DNA from: a virus
Length of the DNA stretch: 23,040 bases
Virus record (IMG/VR): IMGVR_UViG_3300020429_000012
Location: 1-23,040 of that record
Strand: one strand, 5' to 3'
The translations under genes were made by a program, and so were the position numbers. The notes beneath the pieces are model-generated. The model was given only the letters and a program-made list of their open reading frames with translations. It ran no database searches and was not told where the DNA came from. Of this stretch, positions 1 through 21,013 are shown piece after piece (within the stretch, counting starts at the first letter, position 1; each line of letters opens with the position of its first letter).

Positions 1-520
1 TTTTAGAATTAGTTAAAACTGAATTACCCATATAGCCATGAAAGCCACATTGATAATGCAAAACCAATGGTGTTGTATCAGATATTGTTATTTCGGTATA
101 TGCTCCTGATTGCCCTGCTGTACCATTTATAGTTACACCAGTGCTATATAAAGTTGATTTATCCGCTTCTAAATAAAATTTCAAAGGGTGATTGCTATTA
201 CTTGAATCTGATTGAATAAATCTATATGTATTTCCGGGTGTAAGACTTAAAAAAGGAGAAAAAACACCATTAATTTTATAACCTAAACTTGAGCCTTGAC
301 CGTTATATCTGTGTGCAGAGGTTTTACTAGCAACTGTAACTGTATAAGTAATTGTTGAGCTACTAAACGAGCCTAAAAGTTCGCCAGCTTCCCAAACATA
401 ACCTGAGTCATTTTCTGTAAATAACTTTGCGAGTGCTGTATCTATACCGATTTCACCTACAGCTAAGTCAGAGGAACTTGGCTTGGAAGTTCCTCTTTTA
501 TGTTTAATAACATTTGCCAT
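1..520 (-). CDS. Tail fibre protein with cupredoxin-like domain (partial, C-terminus off window)
   Basis: An open frame starts with ATG at 518-520 behind a good Shine-Dalgarno sequence (AAGAGGT) and runs 173 codons to the window edge without a stop. The N-terminus (MANVIKHKRGTSKPSSSDLA, then VGE) resembles the start of many phage fibre proteins and is also similar to the start of the next fibre upstream. Residues about 56-168 form a beta-rich domain that I read as cupredoxin-like, with 'PGNTYRF', 'QSDSSNSNHP' and 'YQCGFHGYMGN'. His111, Cys158, His161 and Met164 match the type 1 copper ligand set (His, then C-x2-H-x2-M). It follows the other fibre genes, so it is probably an exposed tail fibre or tip component. 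Copper binding is inference. The family assignment rests on motif recognition only. Confidence 0.8.
   Translation of the reverse strand, partial: MANVIKHKRGTSKPSSSDLAVGEIGIDTALAKLFTENDSGYVWEAGELLGSFSSSTITYTVTVASKTSAHRYNGQGSSLGYKINGVFSPFLSLTPGNTYRFIQSDSSNSNHPLKFYLEADKSTLYSTGVTINGTAGQSGAYTEITISDTTPLVLHYQCGFHGYMGNSVLTNSK
17..355 (-). other. Cupredoxin-like domain, copy 1 (fibre protein)
   Basis: Residues about 56-168 of the partial fibre protein. The possible ligands are His111, Cys158, His161 and Met164. The order and spacing C-x2-H-x2-M resemble plastocyanin-type sites, which use C-x2-H-x4-M. The domain aligns by eye with the insert in the L-like protein: both carry ING, P.LSL, GNTY, F.QSDSSN, HP, then C..H...MGN. 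Confidence 0.6.
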
Positions 521-555
521 AATAAATACCTCTTAATTTTAATGATGGTTACTTA

Positions 556-4563: not shown

Positions 4564-7500
4564 TTAAACACCTCTTACAGTAAAGTCTACAGTTCCAGCA
4601 ACACCGTTGCCATTGTTATCAAACAAAAATACTTTAAAGCCATCTGCCGGATTTGCAGAATCTACAAAATCATAAATAGCATATTTTGCACTAGAACTTG
4701 ACCCTCTAATTGTAAGAGAAATAGCATCAACATCTACAAAAGTTTCAGTGAAATTAACTTGTTTTCCTGTCCCTTGACTATCTGATGCAGATACAGTTGT
4801 ACTGCCTTGATCTGTTTTTCTTTTTAAAAATGTTTTTGTTTTTAAACTTTGTACTCTTATTAAGTCATCATTAGCTGATCCTGTAAAAACAAATTTTACT
4901 TTTATATATCTAAAATTAGTTCCTAATACATTTGATGCCCCAATACCTCTACTTGTATAGGTAACACCATCAAGAGAAGTAAATATCTCAGGAGTAACAG
5001 TTGTTGATCCTAATGTCACAGTTGAATCTAAACCAAGTGTTGATTCAATTCTTACTGAAGCTATAACCGCACCTGTATCTATGACTTCCTCGTAACTCCC
5101 TGTGTTTTCAGTAGGTAAAGCATAAACAGTGGTAGCACCATAAACACCAAAAGTTCTAGTCGTATCATTGTCATTTGGGTCAAAGTGTTGTTTCCAAGTC
5201 CTAGAAGTATTGACATTAAAAAACAACCCTCCTTCCGCTAAAAATCCATTTACTATAGTACCGCTAAATGTACTATCTACTTCATCTGTTAAGACAAAAT
5301 CAGGAGGTTGATTGACTTTAGCAACTGTTGAGCCTTGAACTCCTTCTACTCCTGCACTATTTACAGGTAAAAGTATATATGTAAAATCACCAGCAACTTG
5401 TTCAAAAACTGTTGTAAAAGTTCCTTGTTTTTGTCCAACTAAATTTGAAGCATCAGTAGTATTCCTATATATGTTGTAATGAATTATAGGTAATTGATTT
5501 GATGAAACATTACTTTCAGTCCATCTTAATAACACATTATTATCAATAACTTCATTCCTTAAATTTGTTACTGCACTAGGGATTTCAACAGAAAATAACA
5601 CTTCTGACAATGCTCCAAGATTATTATTTGTATCTACTGCTCTAACAAAATATTTTTGTTGTAAATCAGTCCATAAAACTCTTTCTGTGACTTGTGTACC
5701 ATTTTGCTGAAAGTCAGCTATGCCAGCAGTTGTAGCGGTTCCAGACTCTCTATAAATTTTATAATCTTTAATTGGTAATCCATTACTTAAAGGTGTTACT
5801 GAATCCCAGCTAACAAAAGCACTATCAGATTTTATGACTGCGGTTAAATTTAGTGGGGCTGGTGGGGCTGCAAGGACAGGATCAGGATAGTTAGCTATGC
5901 CAGTTCTTCCTATATCTCCTCTAAAACCATTAGCATCTAAAGCTACAACAAAAAATCTAACAGCAGTTCCAACTACAAAACTTGAATCAATATCTAACAC
6001 ATAGCTATCTGAATTTATTTTATCTACTAATGTTGCATCATTTATATCAGTAATCGAATTACCACTACGTCTAATTTCATATTCTTTAATTTTTGTATTA
6101 CCTTGTGTAGGCTCAGACCAAAATAATCTAAGTTTTGTACCTTCAAAAGCAAAATTAATATTTGGTGCTGCTGTATTTACAAACGGTATTACTTTTGAAA
6201 TTAAAGAACCTTCTCTGCCAATAATATCAAATGCTTTTATTCGTATGGTTCTATCAGTATTAAAATTAACTGGCAGTGTAAAAGTTGTAGAACTTACCTT
6301 CCCTAGACTTGTAGCATCATCAAAAATTTCATATTCTTTTATAGCAAATTGACCAGTTCCTAATGATGGTTCTGTCCAGTTAATAATTAAATTATCATCT
6401 TTATATTCATGCGTGATTGTATTTACATCTATAGAAGGTGGATTATTTATACTTATTGATGCTGTTCTATTTTGAGAACTTAAATTTCCATCAGAATCTA
6501 TAGCTTTTATTGAATAAACTTTTGCATTGTCTGTTTTGCTTGGCAAAGTTGGAACTAAAACATTTGTTGTATCAAATTCACCAATTAATATTCCTGTATC
6601 AAAATTACCACCTTCTTTAATGACATAACCTCTTATATCTAAATCACTGAAACTTGGAGCTACAGCTTCAATAGGTGTCCAAGTTAATCTAATACCTAAG
6701 TTGGGATCTATTTCCCCAGCAAAAGTATCACTAACTCTACTAGGAGGTGTATTTTTGCCTTGAACTGTTAAAGACGTTTCTAAGGTATCTGTTGATTTTC
6801 TTCCAGATCCACTTACACTTTTAACTTTAAAATTAAAAACAGAACTTGTAGCAGTGTTTACATTGACATCATCAATATCAAAACTAGGACTTTGAGTAGT
6901 AACTACAATTTCTGATTTATTATCTTGATTATATATAAGCTCATATTTGCTTATACCCTCTACAGGTTTCCACTGAACAATAACTCTTACCTTAATCTGA
7001 TCTCTATATTTATATAAGGACTCAATAGGATAATTTACAGTAGTACCATCTGATAAGACTGCATTAGCAAACCTTTCTGGTGCTATAGGTATTTCATCAA
7101 GGTTCGTAATATCTCGATGCTGTAATGTTTCTAACTGCTCTACATGTGCATATTTTGATTCATTATGAGATACTGCGGAAATATTAAATGTAAAATCATC
7201 TCCTTCTTCTACTGCAACAACTTTAAATTGTCTTGAATTAATAGTTTGTGCAGAATTACCTGTAGTTTCTAAAACCCATGTAGTCCCTATGTTTGGAGTT
7301 TGATCTTGAAAGGTATCTATATAATCGGGATTTTCTTGAAGTGAACTTATAAAAGGTTTATTGCCATTTGAATCATTTATTTTTATTTGAAATTTACCAT
7401 TAATTACAATTTTTTTATTTGTAACATCAATAGAACTTATTGCTTTTTTGCTCACTTGACCATCAGGCATAATTACACTCACAAATCCATTTAGATTTGG

Positions 7501-9519
7501 CAAGTTATTTTGATCTGTTGTTATTACATGATTACTTCCTACTGTTTGTATATTTAATATTCTTCCTGCTCTTCTTACACCAGTTTTAACCTCGTCTTGA
7601 ATTTCAATTAACATTCCCGGCCTGCATAAGGCTCCAGCTTCTAATGTTGTAGTAAAAGTAACAGTCTCTATTTCAGTTGCAACTGTAGTTAAAAACCATT
7701 TTCCAAGTCTTCTGGCTTGAGTCCTTGATGTTACCCCAAAACTATCAATGTTTTTAGAAATTGCACCATACTTATTAATTTCTTCTTGGTCAATAACTTC
7801 TTCATAGGCAGAATCTCTTAATTCATTATCAAAATATTTAACTACAACAATATTTGCACGAGTTTTTTGTGATACCCCAGAATAAGTAAACCCATCATCA
7901 GTAACATTAGTTTTGTTAAATAGAAAAGCAGGATCTAAACCTTCTTTATCTTGAATCATAGAAATAGATCCAGCAGAATAAAGTGGCATGCCACGAAAGA
8001 CAGAAGAAAGAGAATTTATAACCTTAAAAGCATCTTGTCTTTTCCTTAAAACACAATTTAATGAAAATCTTGGTTCTTTTATAGTTTCTACGTTCCCATC
8101 ATTTCTTCTATCTTTGAAAGTTACAAGCTCTGAGCTATATTTACTAATTGCATAAAAAGAATATATATCTAAATTTGCAAGTTTTATAAATTGACCAGTA
8201 CCATATCTTTCTGACAATAAAAGATCTAGTAAGCAAAAAGCAGGATCATTTGTATATTGTGCTGCTGTGAGTTGACCATTAAAAATATAACCATCAGGAT
8301 AATAAATAAATCCAAAACTTTTAATTTGATTTGCATTACTTATACCTAAACTTGCAGCTTGATTAGCATCTCTAACTACTACAGGTGTACCAGTTGAATT
8401 GGCTGCTGGTATTCTTACCTTTATACCATTTATTAAATATGCTCTTCTAGGTATTGAATTAAATTGCTCTGCATCTACCTTTAAACCTACTAATGCTGAG
8501 TTTGGATAGTTTAATACTCTATTAAATTTACAAGTACCATTAACAACATTTTTTGATTCTGTATGTTCAATTTTAAATGACGTTGCATTAACAACTTCAG
8601 TAACAACAAAATTACCATTTGCAGGACCGGTGTAAGATCCATTACTTACTTGGTTTCCATTACTAAAGGTAAATTGTTGATTAGATCCATCTGTTAAAAA
8701 CTCAAAGCCTAAACTATCTCCTAAAACTTTTAAATGTTCATCATTAGTATTAATAGTAATAGTATTGCCAGATTGAGAAAATGTGGCCTGTATAGGATTA
8801 TCAAATTCTTTTATTAATTGAAAAGAACCTACTTGAAAGGTGCTTGTATGATTTATTAGATCATCTGAATTATTTGAATTTATTGTTGAATCATCATCGG
8901 TTAAACGAGAAACCTCAAAAGTAACTGGAAAACTATTACCAGATATATCAAAAGAATATTGCCTTGTATATAAATCTCCTGTTCTTCCTCTAAGAGTCTC
9001 AGTTTTAAGAATTTGAGTATTTTGTCCGCTTTGTTGTTTAGAAAACCTAAATTGCACTTGAGTTCCTAAAGTATCACCATCTTTATTAACTTTTTGAAGA
9101 GCTAGAAATCTCATGTCAATTAAGACAGTACTAACAGATGGATCGGTAATAGTAAAAGAAACAGGAGCAAGTTTAGAAACAGTTCTAGTCAAAGATACAG
9201 GTGTTGATGATCTATTAAATCCTTTAAGAACAGATTGAATAGCAGTACCGTTGTTTCTTTGTATTTCAACATCTACAAAATTATCAGTTCCATCAGAATT
9301 TTTAAGAGGTGTATTATTTAAAAATATTGACTGCATGAAGCTATTAGTAAACCCACCGGGATCATGTAGCCCTTCTATTTCTCCCTCAGATATTAGATCT
9401 AAAATATTTGCAAAACTTTTACTATTTAATGAATCTCTAGCTGTTGATGGAGTTCGATTACCACCTCCTCCTTTACTTCCACCGCCCCCTCCAGAGCCTT
9501 GTATAAAATCATTTTTCAT
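4564..9519 (-). CDS. Tail tip host-specificity protein (lambda J-like)
   Basis: A 1651-residue central tail-tip protein, larger than lambda J (1132). It starts with a Gly-rich segment (residues 9-20), then the J signature 'NILDLISEGEIEGL' (39-51). About 242-332 is an extra beta domain inserted before 'YPNSALVGLKVDAEQF', the conserved J core. The core continues through 'DPAFCLLDLLLSERYGTG' (425-442) and the hub domains to about 800. Six fibronectin type III-like repeats follow (about 839-918, 926-1024, 1027-1113, 1117-1208, 1219-1311, 1314-1400). The C-terminal 250 residues are beta-rich and end in 'FTVRGV'; such ends are usually the receptor-binding region. The ATG has no clear Shine-Dalgarno sequence but lies 5 bases after the I-like stop, so coupling is likely. 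Confidence 0.93.
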   Translation of the reverse strand: MKNDFIQGSGGGGGSKGGGGNRTPSTARDSLNSKSFANILDLISEGEIEGLHDPGGFTNSFMQSIFLNNTPLKNSDGTDNFVDVEIQRNNGTAIQSVLKGFNRSSTPVSLTRTVSKLAPVSFTITDPSVSTVLIDMRFLALQKVNKDGDTLGTQVQFRFSKQQSGQNTQILKTETLRGRTGDLYTRQYSFDISGNSFPVTFEVSRLTDDDSTINSNNSDDLINHTSTFQVGSFQLIKEFDNPIQATFSQSGNTITINTNDEHLKVLGDSLGFEFLTDGSNQQFTFSNGNQVSNGSYTGPANGNFVVTEVVNATSFKIEHTESKNVVNGTCKFNRVLNYPNSALVGLKVDAEQFNSIPRRAYLINGIKVRIPAANSTGTPVVVRDANQAASLGISNANQIKSFGFIYYPDGYIFNGQLTAAQYTNDPAFCLLDLLLSERYGTGQFIKLANLDIYSFYAISKYSSELVTFKDRRNDGNVETIKEPRFSLNCVLRKRQDAFKVINSLSSVFRGMPLYSAGSISMIQDKEGLDPAFLFNKTNVTDDGFTYSGVSQKTRANIVVVKYFDNELRDSAYEEVIDQEEINKYGAISKNIDSFGVTSRTQARRLGKWFLTTVATEIETVTFTTTLEAGALCRPGMLIEIQDEVKTGVRRAGRILNIQTVGSNHVITTDQNNLPNLNGFVSVIMPDGQVSKKAISSIDVTNKKIVINGKFQIKINDSNGNKPFISSLQENPDYIDTFQDQTPNIGTTWVLETTGNSAQTINSRQFKVVAVEEGDDFTFNISAVSHNESKYAHVEQLETLQHRDITNLDEIPIAPERFANAVLSDGTTVNYPIESLYKYRDQIKVRVIVQWKPVEGISKYELIYNQDNKSEIVVTTQSPSFDIDDVNVNTATSSVFNFKVKSVSGSGRKSTDTLETSLTVQGKNTPPSRVSDTFAGEIDPNLGIRLTWTPIEAVAPSFSDLDIRGYVIKEGGNFDTGILIGEFDTTNVLVPTLPSKTDNAKVYSIKAIDSDGNLSSQNRTASISINNPPSIDVNTITHEYKDDNLIINWTEPSLGTGQFAIKEYEIFDDATSLGKVSSTTFTLPVNFNTDRTIRIKAFDIIGREGSLISKVIPFVNTAAPNINFAFEGTKLRLFWSEPTQGNTKIKEYEIRRSGNSITDINDATLVDKINSDSYVLDIDSSFVVGTAVRFFVVALDANGFRGDIGRTGIANYPDPVLAAPPAPLNLTAVIKSDSAFVSWDSVTPLSNGLPIKDYKIYRESGTATTAGIADFQQNGTQVTERVLWTDLQQKYFVRAVDTNNNLGALSEVLFSVEIPSAVTNLRNEVIDNNVLLRWTESNVSSNQLPIIHYNIYRNTTDASNLVGQKQGTFTTVFEQVAGDFTYILLPVNSAGVEGVQGSTVAKVNQPPDFVLTDEVDSTFSGTIVNGFLAEGGLFFNVNTSRTWKQHFDPNDNDTTRTFGVYGATTVYALPTENTGSYEEVIDTGAVIASVRIESTLGLDSTVTLGSTTVTPEIFTSLDGVTYTSRGIGASNVLGTNFRYIKVKFVFTGSANDDLIRVQSLKTKTFLKRKTDQGSTTVSASDSQGTGKQVNFTETFVDVDAISLTIRGSSSSAKYAIYDFVDSANPADGFKVFLFDNNGNGVAGTVDFTVRGV

Positions 9520-9524
9520 TTGAA

Positions 9525-10121
9525 TTAAATATCAATAGTTGAAATTTTTGCTGAAATTGGAATAGAGCCTGTTAATACATGTCCATAACAAATTGGGACA
9601 GCTATGCCCGCCCTAGAAGTATTTTGAACACCGCTAAAACTAAAAGACTTAGTTGGATCTCCTTCGTCTTCTGGTATCTCTGGTGTTGGTGATAATAAGC
9701 CTGCAACACCTCCTAAAACTAAAAGCAAACCAATATTACCTACTAAGGCCATGCCAGCAGCACCTCCAGTAAATCCTCCTAATCCTAAAGTTAAAGGATT
9801 TATTGCACCTCCAGAAAAAGCAAAAGCAGCACCAATTAAAACTACACCAGCAATTATTCTTCCAACATTACCTGATCCACTGATAACAGGAATAATTTTA
9901 ATATCACAATTATTATTAGAAAAATTTAATTCTTCTTCTTTTATACATTCATCGCCACAATATACTTGATAATTATTTTTAGCTATATGTTGCTCTGCTC
10001 CCTTAAAATTTGATATTAAGAAACGAACAGCATCAATCGGGCTATTTAAGACTGCTTCAAAAACATCGTTTCCTCCACAAATGTCTATTAATTCACCATA
10101 AAGTTTTATTTTATTTAACAT
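9525..10121 (-). CDS. Tail assembly protein (lambda I-like)
   Basis: A 198-residue protein. The N-terminal about 80 residues are ubiquitin-like in character (starting 'MLNKIKLYGELIDICGG'). A Gly/Ala-rich hydrophobic stretch at about 84-145 could span a membrane ('VGRIIAGVVLIGAAFAFSGG' and 'MALVGNIGLLLVLGGVAGLL'). The conserved C-terminus is 'AGIAVPICYGHVLTGSIPIS'. Lambda I is needed for tail-tip assembly and acts with J, K and L. It overlaps the K-like gene by 11 bases and is followed by the J-like gene, the canonical lambda order. The hydrophobic part may also serve in DNA entry, which is inference. Confidence 0.9.
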   Translation of the reverse strand: MLNKIKLYGELIDICGGNDVFEAVLNSPIDAVRFLISNFKGAEQHIAKNNYQVYCGDECIKEEELNFSNNNCDIKIIPVISGSGNVGRIIAGVVLIGAAFAFSGGAINPLTLGLGGFTGGAAGMALVGNIGLLLVLGGVAGLLSPTPEIPEDEGDPTKSFSFSGVQNTSRAGIAVPICYGHVLTGSIPISAKISTIDI

Positions 10122-10815
10122 AACGAATCCTTTTGCCAGTACATTTCATGAGCCATTCTCCATAAAAGTCTCTTGAACTTAGTCTACCTTCAATATGATG
10201 TAAAATCATTTGATTTTTTAATAGTACACCTATATGATTTAATCCTGTACTATTTAATGAAAAAAGTAAGCAGTCATTAACTTGCAAGTTTTCTTCTGGT
10301 TTTAATTCTCTAAAACCAGTATCTATAAAACATTTTTCAAAATATGGATTATCACAAAAATCTTTTGGATTTACAGGTCTATCCCAATCTCGTAATTTAA
10401 TATTTATAGTTTCAAAATAATCTCTTATTAAGCTCCAACAGTCATGTATTCCAAATACATATTCTCTCCCAACTAAAGGTGCTTTATATCCAGATGGTTT
10501 AAAGTCAAACCATTCATCAAAACAAACCGAATAAATAAACCAAGGCATTTTATATTTTTCGCAAATTGATTTATCTGCTGGAGAAGGGTAAGGTTTTTCA
10601 TTTGGGTGAGAATGAAAAACACCAATGATAGTCCCTATATCAGCTACATCTGCATAATCTTTTGGTCTAATAATAAATGTTTGTTTAGGAGAAATTGATA
10701 TATTTTCACAAGGCTTATATTTAGTTTTACCTTTATGTATATAAATTAAACCACAAGCTTCTTCTGGTAAACATTTTTCAGCATGTTTTTTTGCGTCTAA
10801 TTTCCAATCAAGCAT
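10111..10815 (-). CDS. Tail tip assembly peptidase (lambda K-like; JAMM + NlpC/P60)
   Basis: A two-domain hydrolase. Residue numbers are from an alternative TTG start at 10827; subtract 4 for the ATG chosen here. The N-terminal Mov34/MPN (JAMM) zinc peptidase domain has Glu23 and the complete motif HSHPNEKPYPSPAD (His72, His74, Ser82, Asp85). The C-terminal NlpC/P60 domain has Cys130 in 'HDCWSL', His198 in 'NHIGVLL' and a third candidate polar residue, His210 or His211. Both active sites look intact, so it may process tail proteins and cut peptidoglycan during entry. I prefer the ATG at 10815, overlapping the L stop as ATGCTTGA, because GGGGA lies 12 bases before it but only 1 base before the TTG. 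Confidence 0.93.
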   Translation of the reverse strand: MLDWKLDAKKHAEKCLPEEACGLIYIHKGKTKYKPCENISISPKQTFIIRPKDYADVADIGTIIGVFHSHPNEKPYPSPADKSICEKYKMPWFIYSVCFDEWFDFKPSGYKAPLVGREYVFGIHDCWSLIRDYFETINIKLRDWDRPVNPKDFCDNPYFEKCFIDTGFRELKPEENLQVNDCLLFSLNSTGLNHIGVLLKNQMILHHIEGRLSSRDFYGEWLMKCTGKRIRYVK

Positions 10816-11728
10816 GAAAAGATCCAATCCCCGGAAATTCTCTTGGCAAACATTGTCTTCTTGGTAATTTATATTGTGGCATGTCTATTGGGGCTGCAAG
10901 CTCAAATTCAACTACATTTCTACTCTCTGAAGATTTTCTATCAATAATAAATATCATATCTTCAAATCTTATATTAGGATCTTCATTTGGATTATTTGGT
11001 GCTGTAATAGTTATTGTATTTCCCATACTGTCACCATGCACTTGACAGGAGTATTTAACAGCTTGTGTAAGTTGTTGATTTGAAGGTGTATATGAAAATG
11101 TATAATCCACACCAACAGTTCCCGATTGATTATCAACACTAAATATGCTGTTATTGGAATTAATTAAAATAAAAGGATGTCCTGTATTAGAAGAATCAGA
11201 TTGATTAAAGATATAAGTATTTCCTATAACTAAACTTAAAGTTGGATTTTTAACACCGTTAATATAAAAATAATTAGACCCTCCTACGTTTTGAACAGTA
11301 ACGACATAAGTTATTGTTTCCCCAGAAAAGTTACTTGCAGATATAAATTTAGCCATTGTTCTAAATCTTGTAACTTTTGCTCCTATTAAATCATTATGAG
11401 GAGTAACACCATTTATTTCAGCAAGTATTGTTGAAACTGTAGATAATAAATTACTTACTCTTAAGGTTGGTCTAGGTAAACTAGATTTTTGACTAGATCC
11501 TTTATAATCAAATCCTTCTGCTTCAATCGGCATTTGGCTATAAGTATTACCGTTAAAAATTAATTCACCTTGCGAGTTCTGAGCTACACCACTATGCCAT
11601 CTATAAACAGTTTCAATTCCTAATGGATTTCCAGTGGCATAATGTAATCCTTCGACAAGTTCTAACTCATATAAATCTATAATTGCAGATGGATTTGTTT
11701 GTTGTAATTCAGAAATAGGTAAAGTCAT
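10808..11728 (-). CDS. Minor tail protein (lambda L-like) with cupredoxin-like insertion
   Basis: A 306-residue tail-tip protein. Residues 1-131 match the L family ('LYELELVEG', 'YRWHSGVAQ', 'DLIGAKVTRFRTMAKF'), and the family resumes at 249-292 ('EDPNIRFEDMIFIIDRKSSE', then 'LPRRQCLP'). Between them, about 132-241 is a cupredoxin-like domain not present in lambda L, with possible copper ligands His184, Cys228, His231 and Met235. After 'LPRRQCLP' the protein ends within 12 residues. Lambda L (232 residues) continues into a cysteine-rich domain that binds an iron-sulfur cluster, and that domain is missing here. The ATG overlaps the M-like stop (ATGA), and the end overlaps the K-like start. L forms the tail tip with J, I, K and M. 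Confidence 0.9.
   Translation of the reverse strand: MTLPISELQQTNPSAIIDLYELELVEGLHYATGNPLGIETVYRWHSGVAQNSQGELIFNGNTYSQMPIEAEGFDYKGSSQKSSLPRPTLRVSNLLSTVSTILAEINGVTPHNDLIGAKVTRFRTMAKFISASNFSGETITYVVTVQNVGGSNYFYINGVKNPTLSLVIGNTYIFNQSDSSNTGHPFILINSNNSIFSVDNQSGTVGVDYTFSYTPSNQQLTQAVKYSCQVHGDSMGNTITITAPNNPNEDPNIRFEDMIFIIDRKSSESRNVVEFELAAPIDMPQYKLPRRQCLPREFPGIGSFHA
11006..11335 (-). other. Cupredoxin-like domain, copy 2 (inserted in L-like protein)
   Basis: Residues about 132-241 of the L-like protein: 'ETITYVVTVQNVGGSNYFYI', 'GNTYIFNQSDSSNTGHPF' and 'KYSCQVHGDSMGN'. The ligand candidates are His184, Cys228, His231 and Met235 (C-x2-H-x3-M). The flanking sequence reads as a normal L protein, so the domain looks inserted. 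It is clearly related to the domain at 17-355. Confidence 0.65.
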
Positions 11729-12093
11729 ACTTCAAAAACTTCTTGAAAAACTAATGAAATATCATATAACCCTGCTGATACTACGGTGACAGAAGGATTA
11801 GCACATGTAAATTTACCACTTGCACCATAAGGAGGGACATAGGTAAATGCTTTTGCACCACTATCTCCTTTTGTAGGATCAGCTAAGAAAGCAAGAATAT
11901 TATCAGTTGTAGTTTTATCTCTATTGTTAAAATTAAGAGTATATTTTCTTTTTGTTGAATTTAATCCCGACCTTAAACGCTGGGCATATCCATCCCCTAG
12001 ATTAACCTCAATAATGTCATTCTCAATTTCAAGTCTTGGTGAATAACTTGGTGCGACATCAGAGCCGACTGTTGTAGTGTCAAAAGTAGCCAT
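11725..12093 (-). CDS. Minor tail protein (lambda M-like)
   Basis: A 122-residue protein of the phage minor tail protein M family: 'GDGYAQRLRSGLNSTKRKYT', 'NFNNRDKTT', 'FLADPTKGDSGAKAFTYVPP' and a C-terminal 'LYDISLVFQEVFEV'. The length is close to lambda M (109). M joins the tail tip after the tape measure complex forms. A strong Shine-Dalgarno sequence (GGAGGT) lies inside the end of the tape measure gene, and the ATG follows its stop directly (TAAATG). The end overlaps the L-like start by 4 bases. Confidence 0.9.
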   Translation of the reverse strand: MATFDTTTVGSDVAPSYSPRLEIENDIIEVNLGDGYAQRLRSGLNSTKRKYTLNFNNRDKTTTDNILAFLADPTKGDSGAKAFTYVPPYGASGKFTCANPSVTVVSAGLYDISLVFQEVFEV

Positions 12094-18493: not shown

Positions 18494-21013
18494 CTAAGTA
18501 GCGAAACAAAATGCTCCGGCTTGTCTCACGGCATAGTCTATGTCCTGTAGGGCAATTATTCTTACAGTACCAGCAGTTGCCCCAGCGAAAGGATCAACAG
18601 TTAGATCTAAGCCAGACCACATACCAACAATAAACTGACTGAAATCACCAAAGATTACATCGTTATTTACAAGTTGGTTTGTAGTGATTGCTTGATAACC
18701 ATTAATCTGATTATTTTCAAACACGAAGTTAGCAGTAGAAGTACTTGTCTTCTCTGTTGACTTCAAAGCACCTCTTGTTGTTGCATTAATGAGATACTTC
18801 ATTGAGTTGCCTTCTGCGTTTGCAACCGCAACATCAGTTTCCATTGCAATTAGCTCAGAAAATGTGCCTGTGCCTGTTAAAGACTGAGAGCCAATACCAG
18901 AAGTTTGAGTTAAACCTAGTGGCTGATTAGAAGAACCAGTTCCATAGATAGCTGTACGATCTAACTCAAGAGCGATCTTCTTAGCAATGTCATCTCTAAC
19001 AAAAGCTTCAATATCAATAGAAGACTGTAAAAGAGTCCTTCTAGTGAAGTCAGTAAATGCACCGATTGTTTTTGGTGTCATTGAAATCTGAGTAAAGCTT
19101 TGCTGTCCCTCTGTAGGGGCTGCACCCTCTCCTACCCAGTAAGCGGCTGTTGTCCCATCTTGCTTGGGAATTGCAATATTGCCCTCTAGTCCTGTCAGCA
19201 TTGTTACCCCTGCTTCCATTATAGCCATCTTATTTCTCAAGATTTCTATAAATGAGCCACTGAGTAGGTCTGTGGACACAAGATTTCCTCCGTCCGCAGC
19301 AGTCCCAACATTCAAGTCCCTCTTGAGTACTTCGTTAGGAATCAAAATACCTTTTGCTGGTCTGCCATAACGCTTTGCTGCTTCTTCAGAGACTTCACGC
19401 TCGTATGTTGCTGCGTCTTGTGCTGCTTTATCAGCAGGATTTGCAAGAGCATTGATAGCTCTTAAGAATGAGAAGCTTTGTACTTCTTTTTTATCTAAGA
19501 ACTCCTCAGATTTTTTGCCTTCAATTTGCATGTCGGTTGAACGAATAGGGGTTACTTTTTTATTTTTCACAAGATCTAATATTGCAGATCTTGCTTCAGT
19601 AGCAGACTTACCACCCTTGATTAAAGTTTCGGTAAGCTCTTCTGCTCCGTATTCTGCAAACTCACGACAAGTTGAAGTGATTTCAGCAACACGAGCATTG
19701 TTCTCATCTAAAGCACGTTGTACTTCAGCTTGAACATCAATTTCTACGGCTGGCTTTGTTTCCACCGCAGTTTCTTTAGTTGTTTCTTCCATAGACGGAT
19801 TGGATTGTGCGGTAGATTCCGCAGAACGAGTCTCCTCAAGAGGAGCGTTATCATTAATAATAATGTTTTCCTTCTCTAAAGTAACATTTTCTGATGAAAT
19901 ATTCTCTACTAAAGATCTTCCAAACCCAACCGAATTGTCTGCTGGGATCGTTGCCAAGCTAACTTCGTGTGGGGTCCAACGGGTCGCACGGAGTCCAGTG
20001 TCCGTTTCTTCCACTTCGTCCAGACTGTACCCAAAGGAAATTCCACGCAAAATACCGTCTTTAACGTCTTCTAAGACTTCAGAAGCGAATTTAGAGCGAG
20101 AAAAGCGGATTTTAGCGTAACCTCTCATGTCGCTAGGATTTATATAGGCACTTTCGACCACCCCTAGAACTTTATCAGGATTGTGGTTGAAGAGAAACGG
20201 AGCAGAGTCATTTAGTCTTACTAAATTTGCACTTCCTTCTTCGTGGCTTAACACTTCGTCACCAAAAAACCTTTTTACTGGTAGTTCGCTTGAGAAAGGA
20301 AACTCAAAAGTTCTTGATTTTACATTTTTAAAATCAGTAACCTCTTTTCTTTCTAGTTTGTCATCTGAAGTAATAACTCTAATTGGAGCTATTTTTGATA
20401 AAGCACTAAAACGATGTCCAGCAAAAATATCTGTTGACTCACCATTTCTATAAACCTGTATCAAAGCAGCAGGATTTTCTGGAGTGCCTTTTATGACAAA
20501 AGAACTGCTTGGTACATCTATTTCTCCATCTCTAACTATACGAGTAATCTTACCCCTAGCTCGACCACCACTAGCGTTCCAAGCAACAAAGTCGCCAGTT
20601 TTTAGAGCATCTGGTGCTGCTCTAACTGTATCTTCTGTTTTAATTACATAGTCTTCAGACATAGTTCGCTCCCTAGCTTTTTTGATTTGATTAGACTTGG
20701 TTCTGGACCAAGATTGTCCTGCGTCCCCGCCCCAAGCGGCCCAAGCGACCCTCCCGTTGCTGGGATAGCCCTCCTCGCCCGGACGAAAACCTTTGCCCGA
20801 TTTGTCCGATTCATGTCGGGCAAACCATGCGTTCATTGTAATAACAGTATCAGCCGATAGCTCATTACCGCTTAATATTTGTGTTGCTCTTGTTCTAGCT
20901 ACATCTGTACCTCCTCCTTCTCCTTCTTTCTTCCATTCTCTGTAACGTCTAGCTTCTGTCCTCATGCCATCAGTAGGCATAAGACTTATAGAAACACCGT
21001 TTACATTTGCCAT
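18494..21013 (-). CDS. Prohead protease-major capsid fusion with two extra N-terminal domains
   Basis: An 839-residue protein. Residues 17-115 are a domain with 'RRYREWKKEGEGGGTDVART' and 'GYPSNGRVAWAAWGGDAGQS', known to me as an uncharacterised module near phage head genes. About 138-208 reads as a DUF2945/TUDOR-like SH3 domain ('GDFVAWNASGGRARGKITRI'). About 233-370 is a U35-family prohead protease: His277 in 'FLFNHNPDKVLG', Ser326 in 'GISFGYS' and Glu350 in 'HEVSLATIPAD' are candidate catalytic residues. About 371-500 is a charged, acidic scaffold-like (delta) region. About 505-839 is the HK97-fold capsid ('AYWVGEGAAPTEGQQSFTQI', 'IYGTGSSNQPLG'). Separate scaffold and protease genes are absent, so self-cleavage probably releases the capsid. 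Start: ATG with AAAGGAG. Confidence 0.93.
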   Translation of the reverse strand: MANVNGVSISLMPTDGMRTEARRYREWKKEGEGGGTDVARTRATQILSGNELSADTVITMNAWFARHESDKSGKGFRPGEEGYPSNGRVAWAAWGGDAGQSWSRTKSNQIKKARERTMSEDYVIKTEDTVRAAPDALKTGDFVAWNASGGRARGKITRIVRDGEIDVPSSSFVIKGTPENPAALIQVYRNGESTDIFAGHRFSALSKIAPIRVITSDDKLERKEVTDFKNVKSRTFEFPFSSELPVKRFFGDEVLSHEEGSANLVRLNDSAPFLFNHNPDKVLGVVESAYINPSDMRGYAKIRFSRSKFASEVLEDVKDGILRGISFGYSLDEVEETDTGLRATRWTPHEVSLATIPADNSVGFGRSLVENISSENVTLEKENIIINDNAPLEETRSAESTAQSNPSMEETTKETAVETKPAVEIDVQAEVQRALDENNARVAEITSTCREFAEYGAEELTETLIKGGKSATEARSAILDLVKNKKVTPIRSTDMQIEGKKSEEFLDKKEVQSFSFLRAINALANPADKAAQDAATYEREVSEEAAKRYGRPAKGILIPNEVLKRDLNVGTAADGGNLVSTDLLSGSFIEILRNKMAIMEAGVTMLTGLEGNIAIPKQDGTTAAYWVGEGAAPTEGQQSFTQISMTPKTIGAFTDFTRRTLLQSSIDIEAFVRDDIAKKIALELDRTAIYGTGSSNQPLGLTQTSGIGSQSLTGTGTFSELIAMETDVAVANAEGNSMKYLINATTRGALKSTEKTSTSTANFVFENNQINGYQAITTNQLVNNDVIFGDFSQFIVGMWSGLDLTVDPFAGATAGTVRIIALQDIDYAVRQAGAFCFAT
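20708..20818 (-). other. GC-rich codon patch in the N-terminal domain of the capsid fusion
   Basis: Residues 66-102 use about 60% G or C at third codon positions by my count (22 of 36), far above the AT-ending codons of the flanking genes. The segment encodes Gly, Arg and Trp, which explains part but not all of the G+C. It may mark acquired or recombined DNA. Confidence 0.5.

Follow-up and report, generated by a model that had tools for sequence, protein, structure and literature searches.

A cupredoxin domain with a complete set of predicted type-1 copper ligands is inserted in the tail-tip protein L of a marine phage

In phage lambda, residues 1-166 of the tail-tip protein gpL form the HDI domain, which makes up the last tail ring, and its C-terminal domain holds a [4Fe-4S] cluster on the outer surface (PMC10721106). 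Homologues of L without the cluster have been noted earlier (PMC13243795). The hub of the roseophage R4C carries an inserted oligosaccharide-binding domain, an example of the adhesion modules known to be inserted in hub proteins (PMC10276861). Here we describe an L protein whose insert is a cupredoxin with the complete ligand set of a type-1 (blue) copper site. The window, i.e. the whole stretch of 23,040 nucleotides analysed, encodes on its minus strand a lambda-like structural module with a portal, a head protein, a tail terminator, a tail tube and a tape measure, followed by homologues of the distal tail proteins in the gene order M-L-K-I-J (Table 1). The L reading frame matches Phage_tail_L (PF05100; 2.9e-22) and the minor tail protein family phrog_18 (4.7e-37), in both cases in two stretches divided by the insert, and like lambda gpL (PF05100) it has an N-terminal HDI domain and the position of L in the tail module. 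Elsewhere in the window (18494..21013, minus strand), an 839-aa head protein matched the families of both the head maturation protease and the major head protein, so that protease and capsid are apparently encoded by one fused gene.

Table 1. Coordinates of the L gene, its inserted domain and predicted ligands, and neighbouring tail genes in the window
Feature	Position	Strand	Basis or remarks
Lambda gpL-type tail-tip hub protein, 306 aa, insert-bearing	10808..11728	-	PF05100, phrog_18, synteny with M, K, I, J
Cupredoxin domain, L residues ~136-243	11000..11323	-	Boundaries from F2-pyocin alignment; AF2, Foldseek, hhalign
His184, predicted first copper ligand	11177..11179	-	Invariant 217/217; aligned to plastocyanin His
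Cys228, predicted copper thiolate ligand, only Cys of the insert	11045..11047	-	Invariant 214/214
His231, predicted copper ligand	11036..11038	-	Invariant 212/212
Met235, predicted axial ligand, only Met of the insert	11024..11026	-	C-x2-H-x2/3-M wherever loop complete
gpM-like distal tail protein	11725..12093	-	PF05939 2e-17
gpK-like JAB + NlpC/P60 tail peptidase	10111..10827	-	PF14464, PF00877; phrog_30
gpI-like tail assembly protein	9525..10121	-	phrog_32 2.7e-37
gpJ-like central tail fibre	4564..9519	-	phrog_31 'central tail fiber J' 2e-152
Partial tail fibre, second domain copy (match 14..373)	2..532	-	phrog_30742 tail fiber 7.7e-56; loop C-x2-H-x2-M

A first-pass annotation of this DNA had proposed that the L sequence is interrupted at about residue 132 by about 110 residues and then resumes, with the insert spanning 11006..11335. 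Alignment with the solved F2-pyocin hub protein, in which residues 32-112 correspond to L residues 43-135 and residues 113-161 to L residues 244-293, bears out the interruption. Since the pyocin hub is ungapped at 112/113, L residues ~136-243 (~108 residues) are an insertion, and the two spans agree within ~4 residues. Lambda gpL (8iyk) could be aligned to the window L as far as lambda residue 120; given the extent of the lambda HDI domain, the insertion lies inside HDI. A scan of viral contigs yielded 34 L relatives. Eight L homologues of 186-188 aa (L027-L034) lack the insert and represent natural empty sites, and the insert is not confined to one type of L: a second L subfamily of ~331 aa (L043-L113, e.g. 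L046:2069-3067) has the domain at the corresponding place, flanked by Thr-rich linkers. The sole close relative of this subfamily in the phage collection is a single-cell record, MH327491 (marine virus AG-345-A17). The same record was the only full match when cultured phages were searched for a siphophage with an insert-bearing L, and no cultured one was found; a search of cellular genomes with the whole L gave no match. On a tree of the L backbone from which the insert had been removed, presence of the insert changes at least three times, which means repeated gain or loss. Identity to L001 is 61% in the insert versus 91% in the carrier; the insert is thus the faster-diverging part, with its ligands kept.

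The structure of the domain was predicted with AF2 from 100 aligned relatives with high confidence (pLDDT 90.4, pTM 0.84). The model contains eight strands (7-17, 20-25, 33-36, 40-44, 55-59, 79-82, 92-97 and 101-111) and agrees with the cupredoxin fold, a Greek-key beta-sandwich with about eight strands. The first His lies just ahead of the fifth strand, which by position is strand 4 of plastocyanin, the Cys ends the seventh strand, and the second His and the Met are found in the following turn or directly behind it, which is the plastocyanin arrangement. These places along the strand order fit plastocyanin; distances between the ligands were not measured because no model coordinates were available. 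All four Foldseek matches in the PDB at E<=1e-3 were rusticyanin (best E 4e-4), and the top 50 consisted entirely of rusticyanin, two-domain laccases or copper nitrite reductases, with TM-scores on the query that were only moderate (0.50-0.62). A fold search of a viral library also matched 'beta-sandwich' proteins of giant viruses (Marseillevirus LCMAC201, Pithovirus LCPAC302/304; E 1e-5 to 1e-4), whose ligands were not compared.

On the sequence level, hhalign of the domain profile with a plastocyanin-family set (PF00127, 32 sequences) gave a probability of 95.9% and an E-value of 6.4e-9 with all four ligands in register. The profile score of 52.2 compares with a mean of 10.3 and a maximum of 17.9 for 60 column shuffles and with 19.4 for the reversed profile. 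With the ligands masked it fell to 26.3, still above every shuffle, which means that the shared ligands account for about half of the signal. Single sequences revealed far less of this relationship. Searched alone against Pfam and NCBIfam, the window insert returned nothing relevant; it did not match the Copper-bind model (PF00127), whose gathering cut-off was not reached, and 5 of 100 family members matched this model at E-values up to 1 (best 0.053). Individual family members gave weak matches to the SoxE, plastocyanin, rusticyanin and Copper-bind models. A PDB sequence search with 14 sequences found nothing significant; with 100 sequences copper nitrite reductase came first (E 0.0035). The Zn-binding YHYH domain, a further candidate, does not figure among the family's listed Pfam matches.

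The insert contains one Cys, two His and one Met, exactly the four proposed ligands. Their conservation was assessed in 217 distinct domains, the denominators 217, 214 and 212 in Table 1 being the domains in which the respective position is present. The C-x2-H-x2/3-M loop was detected by pattern in 210 of the 217 and recognized by eye in one more (L285, YTYCTNHSLMG); in the other six it is lost at a contig end. All but one of the 210 domains with a pattern-found loop have a single Cys. The loop comes in two spacings. C-x2-H-x3-M is the form of every L insert whose loop is complete and of some long fibres; elsewhere it is C-x2-H-x2-M. The four ligands together with the Gly after Met form the lowest-entropy columns of the domain family. 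Relatives were fetched with seeds that mostly lack the ligand motif, so that the conservation does not result from selection by the search. Still, the best 80 sequences per scan are close relatives, which has to be kept in mind. Computation demonstrates strong selection on the ligands. The suggestion of the first-pass annotation that the insert is a cupredoxin-like domain with the type-1 ligand set His184, Cys228, His231 and Met235 therefore agrees with predicted fold, ligand register and conservation alike: the comparison with plastocyanin folds places the ligands as in plastocyanin, the residue numbers are exact in the window L, and no position of the family is better conserved among homologues than these four. 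Although no metal has been shown, we infer that the domain probably binds copper.

The domain is not restricted to L. A search of the phage collection with the insert alone matched 217 of 50,697 records, which by organism name belong to Synechococcus, Prochlorococcus, Cyanophage, Pelagibacter and Methylophilales phages and a few unnamed ones. The annotated carriers are tail fibre, baseplate wedge, structural or hypothetical proteins, and scans of viral contigs yielded more than 500 relatives each. Within the window, a partial tail fibre bears a second copy; longer counterparts of this fibre occur in L121 and, with 1939 and 1756 aa, as open frames of two related contigs. The long contigs of two close L relatives (L002 and L040) likewise hold two copies each, the first in L and the other in a long fibre, and some proteins contain the domain in tandem. 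In cellular genomes the domain was found at eight loci (L280-L287) on marine MAG and Prochlorococcus single-cell contigs, whose viral or host origin is unsettled. The first-pass annotation needs one correction: L is only one of the carriers, and the domain is mobile among marine-phage tail proteins. By these computations the domain constitutes a large unnamed mobile family on L hubs, baseplate wedges and fibres of ocean phages.

The window L differs from lambda gpL at its C-terminus as well. It ends in PGIGSFHA without a Cys4 tail, its sole Cys residues being C228 in the insert and C293, and the insert-bearing relatives have PGIGSFHA or PSIGTF-type ends, again without Cys4. L of Synechococcus phage S-H1 (L118) has kept the four Cys, and L of MED4-184 has neither insert nor Cys4. 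Among 201 distinct L ORFs, insert and iron-sulfur tail never occur together (72 with the insert only, 57 with the iron-sulfur tail only, 67 with neither). In the L tree the sampled iron-sulfur proteins form one clade, and two lineages possess neither feature. A replacement of the lost iron-sulfur cluster by the cupredoxin would be a single association without a demonstrated swap; because the sampled iron-sulfur proteins form only one clade, an exchange of iron for copper remains suggestive. Independently of this question, the Cys4 iron-sulfur domain, which has been described as universal for gpL, is absent in these marine L proteins (window 10808..10850; L119; L027-L034).

What the domain does can only be inferred. 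The full-length AF2 model of L is poor (pLDDT 55) and does not allow the insert to be placed; its exposure is for this reason deduced from lambda, by analogy with which it is likely to lie on the surface and project from the tip. Virions are assembled in the metal-poor cytoplasm, and the domain would hence pick up copper probably after release of the virion or at the cell envelope. In our best reading the metal-bearing domain would then serve as a surface decoration for adhesion that aids the tail tip in engaging the host surface. Such a role in host attachment, again drawn from analogy and functionally untested, has in our estimation even chances. No ligand or receptor of the domain is known. 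We put the reading as a whole, a mobile, copper-bearing cupredoxin for adhesion on distal tail proteins, at slightly better than even.

Other explanations have to be weighed against it. An immunoglobulin-like or other beta-sandwich with a convergent motif could account for the antibody V domains among the weak profile matches, which are due to a YYC motif. However, a single Cys precludes an Ig disulfide, only copper proteins appear in the top 50 of the structure search, and the ligands are in register with plastocyanin, so that this possibility is very remote. A passive decoration, either a stable beta-sandwich spacer or an Ig-like domain for adhesion, with any bound copper serving structure alone, is more plausible but still unlikely. 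Phage tails often bear Ig-like decorations, and a domain that moves between proteins and was lost and gained, with at least three changes on the L tree, would agree with this idea. On the other hand, the absolute conservation of four ligands in the absence of any other Cys implies selection on the metal site, and as cupredoxins generally fold without metal, a structural need for it is not obvious.

If the metal matters, it could act as a redox or copper sensor, with metal binding or reduction at the envelope altering the conformation of the hub and helping to trigger genome release. The domain's place at the tip, in the terminal ring of the tail, a ligand set fit for redox-active copper and the missing iron-sulfur tail of the domain-bearing L proteins are compatible with such a sensor. 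We nevertheless consider it improbable, somewhat more so than a passive decoration: the module resides in many unrelated proteins, in some of them in tandem, which speaks against a single, specific mechanical coupling, cupredoxins are generally known to move little on redox change, and L proteins of sister phages do without the domain. Finally, the copper-loaded domain could be a Trojan horse that the host takes for a copper carrier and that docks on an outer-membrane copper receptor. In the phage collection its carriers are marine phages, and those of the domain-bearing proteins that have an annotation are tail or structural ones. A precedent exists in P. aeruginosa, whose TonB-dependent copper transporter OprC is bound by azurin, a secreted cupredoxin (PMC6907878), and iron-bearing phage tails have been proposed to exploit iron receptors as a 'Ferrojan horse' (PMC11705849). 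But the hosts are very different (cyanobacteria, Pelagibacter, Methylophilales), some lack a known receptor of this kind, and no receptor has been identified. We therefore regard it as doubtful that a copper carrier is mimicked, and equally doubtful that ocean phages exploit the copper handling of the host through type-1 copper on tail tips and fibres, with the copper-loaded cupredoxin docking on a copper receptor of the envelope. Attachment, copper capture and receptor mimicry are not separated by the present results.

The domain has no counterpart among the curated Pfam and NCBIfam models and goes unnamed in the PHROG descriptions, and we found no account of it in the literature on cupredoxins or blue copper in phages, where an earlier mention remains possible because subscription journals were outside the scope. 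Some members may already be labelled cupredoxin-like in annotation databases built on structures. If copper is bound, a metal site of the class known from electron transfer and copper handling is on display in many ocean phages. In that case a role of the metal in marine phage infection would become directly testable, the Ferrojan horse idea, so far confined to iron, would extend to copper, and the domain would provide an annotation handle for hundreds of tail proteins of unknown function. Should the receptor-docking variant prove true, copper would help to determine marine phage infection, and virions would constitute a pool of bound copper.

Compared with known systems, the phage domain resembles type-1 cupredoxins (plastocyanin/azurin PF00127, rusticyanin, copper nitrite reductase, two-domain laccase) in predicted fold, strand order at the site and the ligand set His...Cys-x2-His-x2/3-Met. 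It differs from them in its loops, C-x2-H-x2-M or C-x2-H-x3-M, and in the Pro that follows the first His in 210 of the 217 domains, where plastocyanin has Asn; moreover, type-1 cupredoxins are secreted electron carriers, whereas the phage domain is part of a tail protein and stays below Pfam thresholds. With lambda gpL/PF05100 the window L shares the HDI core and the M-L-K-I-J order, but it lacks the domain with the [4Fe-4S] ligands Cys173/182/205/212 and instead carries the cupredoxin near lambda residue 120. The hubs of roseophage R4C and RcGTA are L-type like the window L, and R4C also has an inserted accessory beta domain. That insert, however, binds oligosaccharides and lies within the iron-sulfur region with the cluster kept (PMC10276861), while the window L combines a cupredoxin with the absence of iron-sulfur. 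The PHROG tail families 708, 30742, 32294, 693 and 27200 belong to the same sequence family as the insert; they comprise baseplate wedge, fibre and unknown proteins, and PHROGs names neither domain nor metal site. The HxH iron sites in tail fibres on which the Ferrojan horse is based are, as here, tail-borne metal in marine phages, yet they are His-only iron octahedra in fibre trimers and not a cupredoxin site of His, Cys, His and Met.
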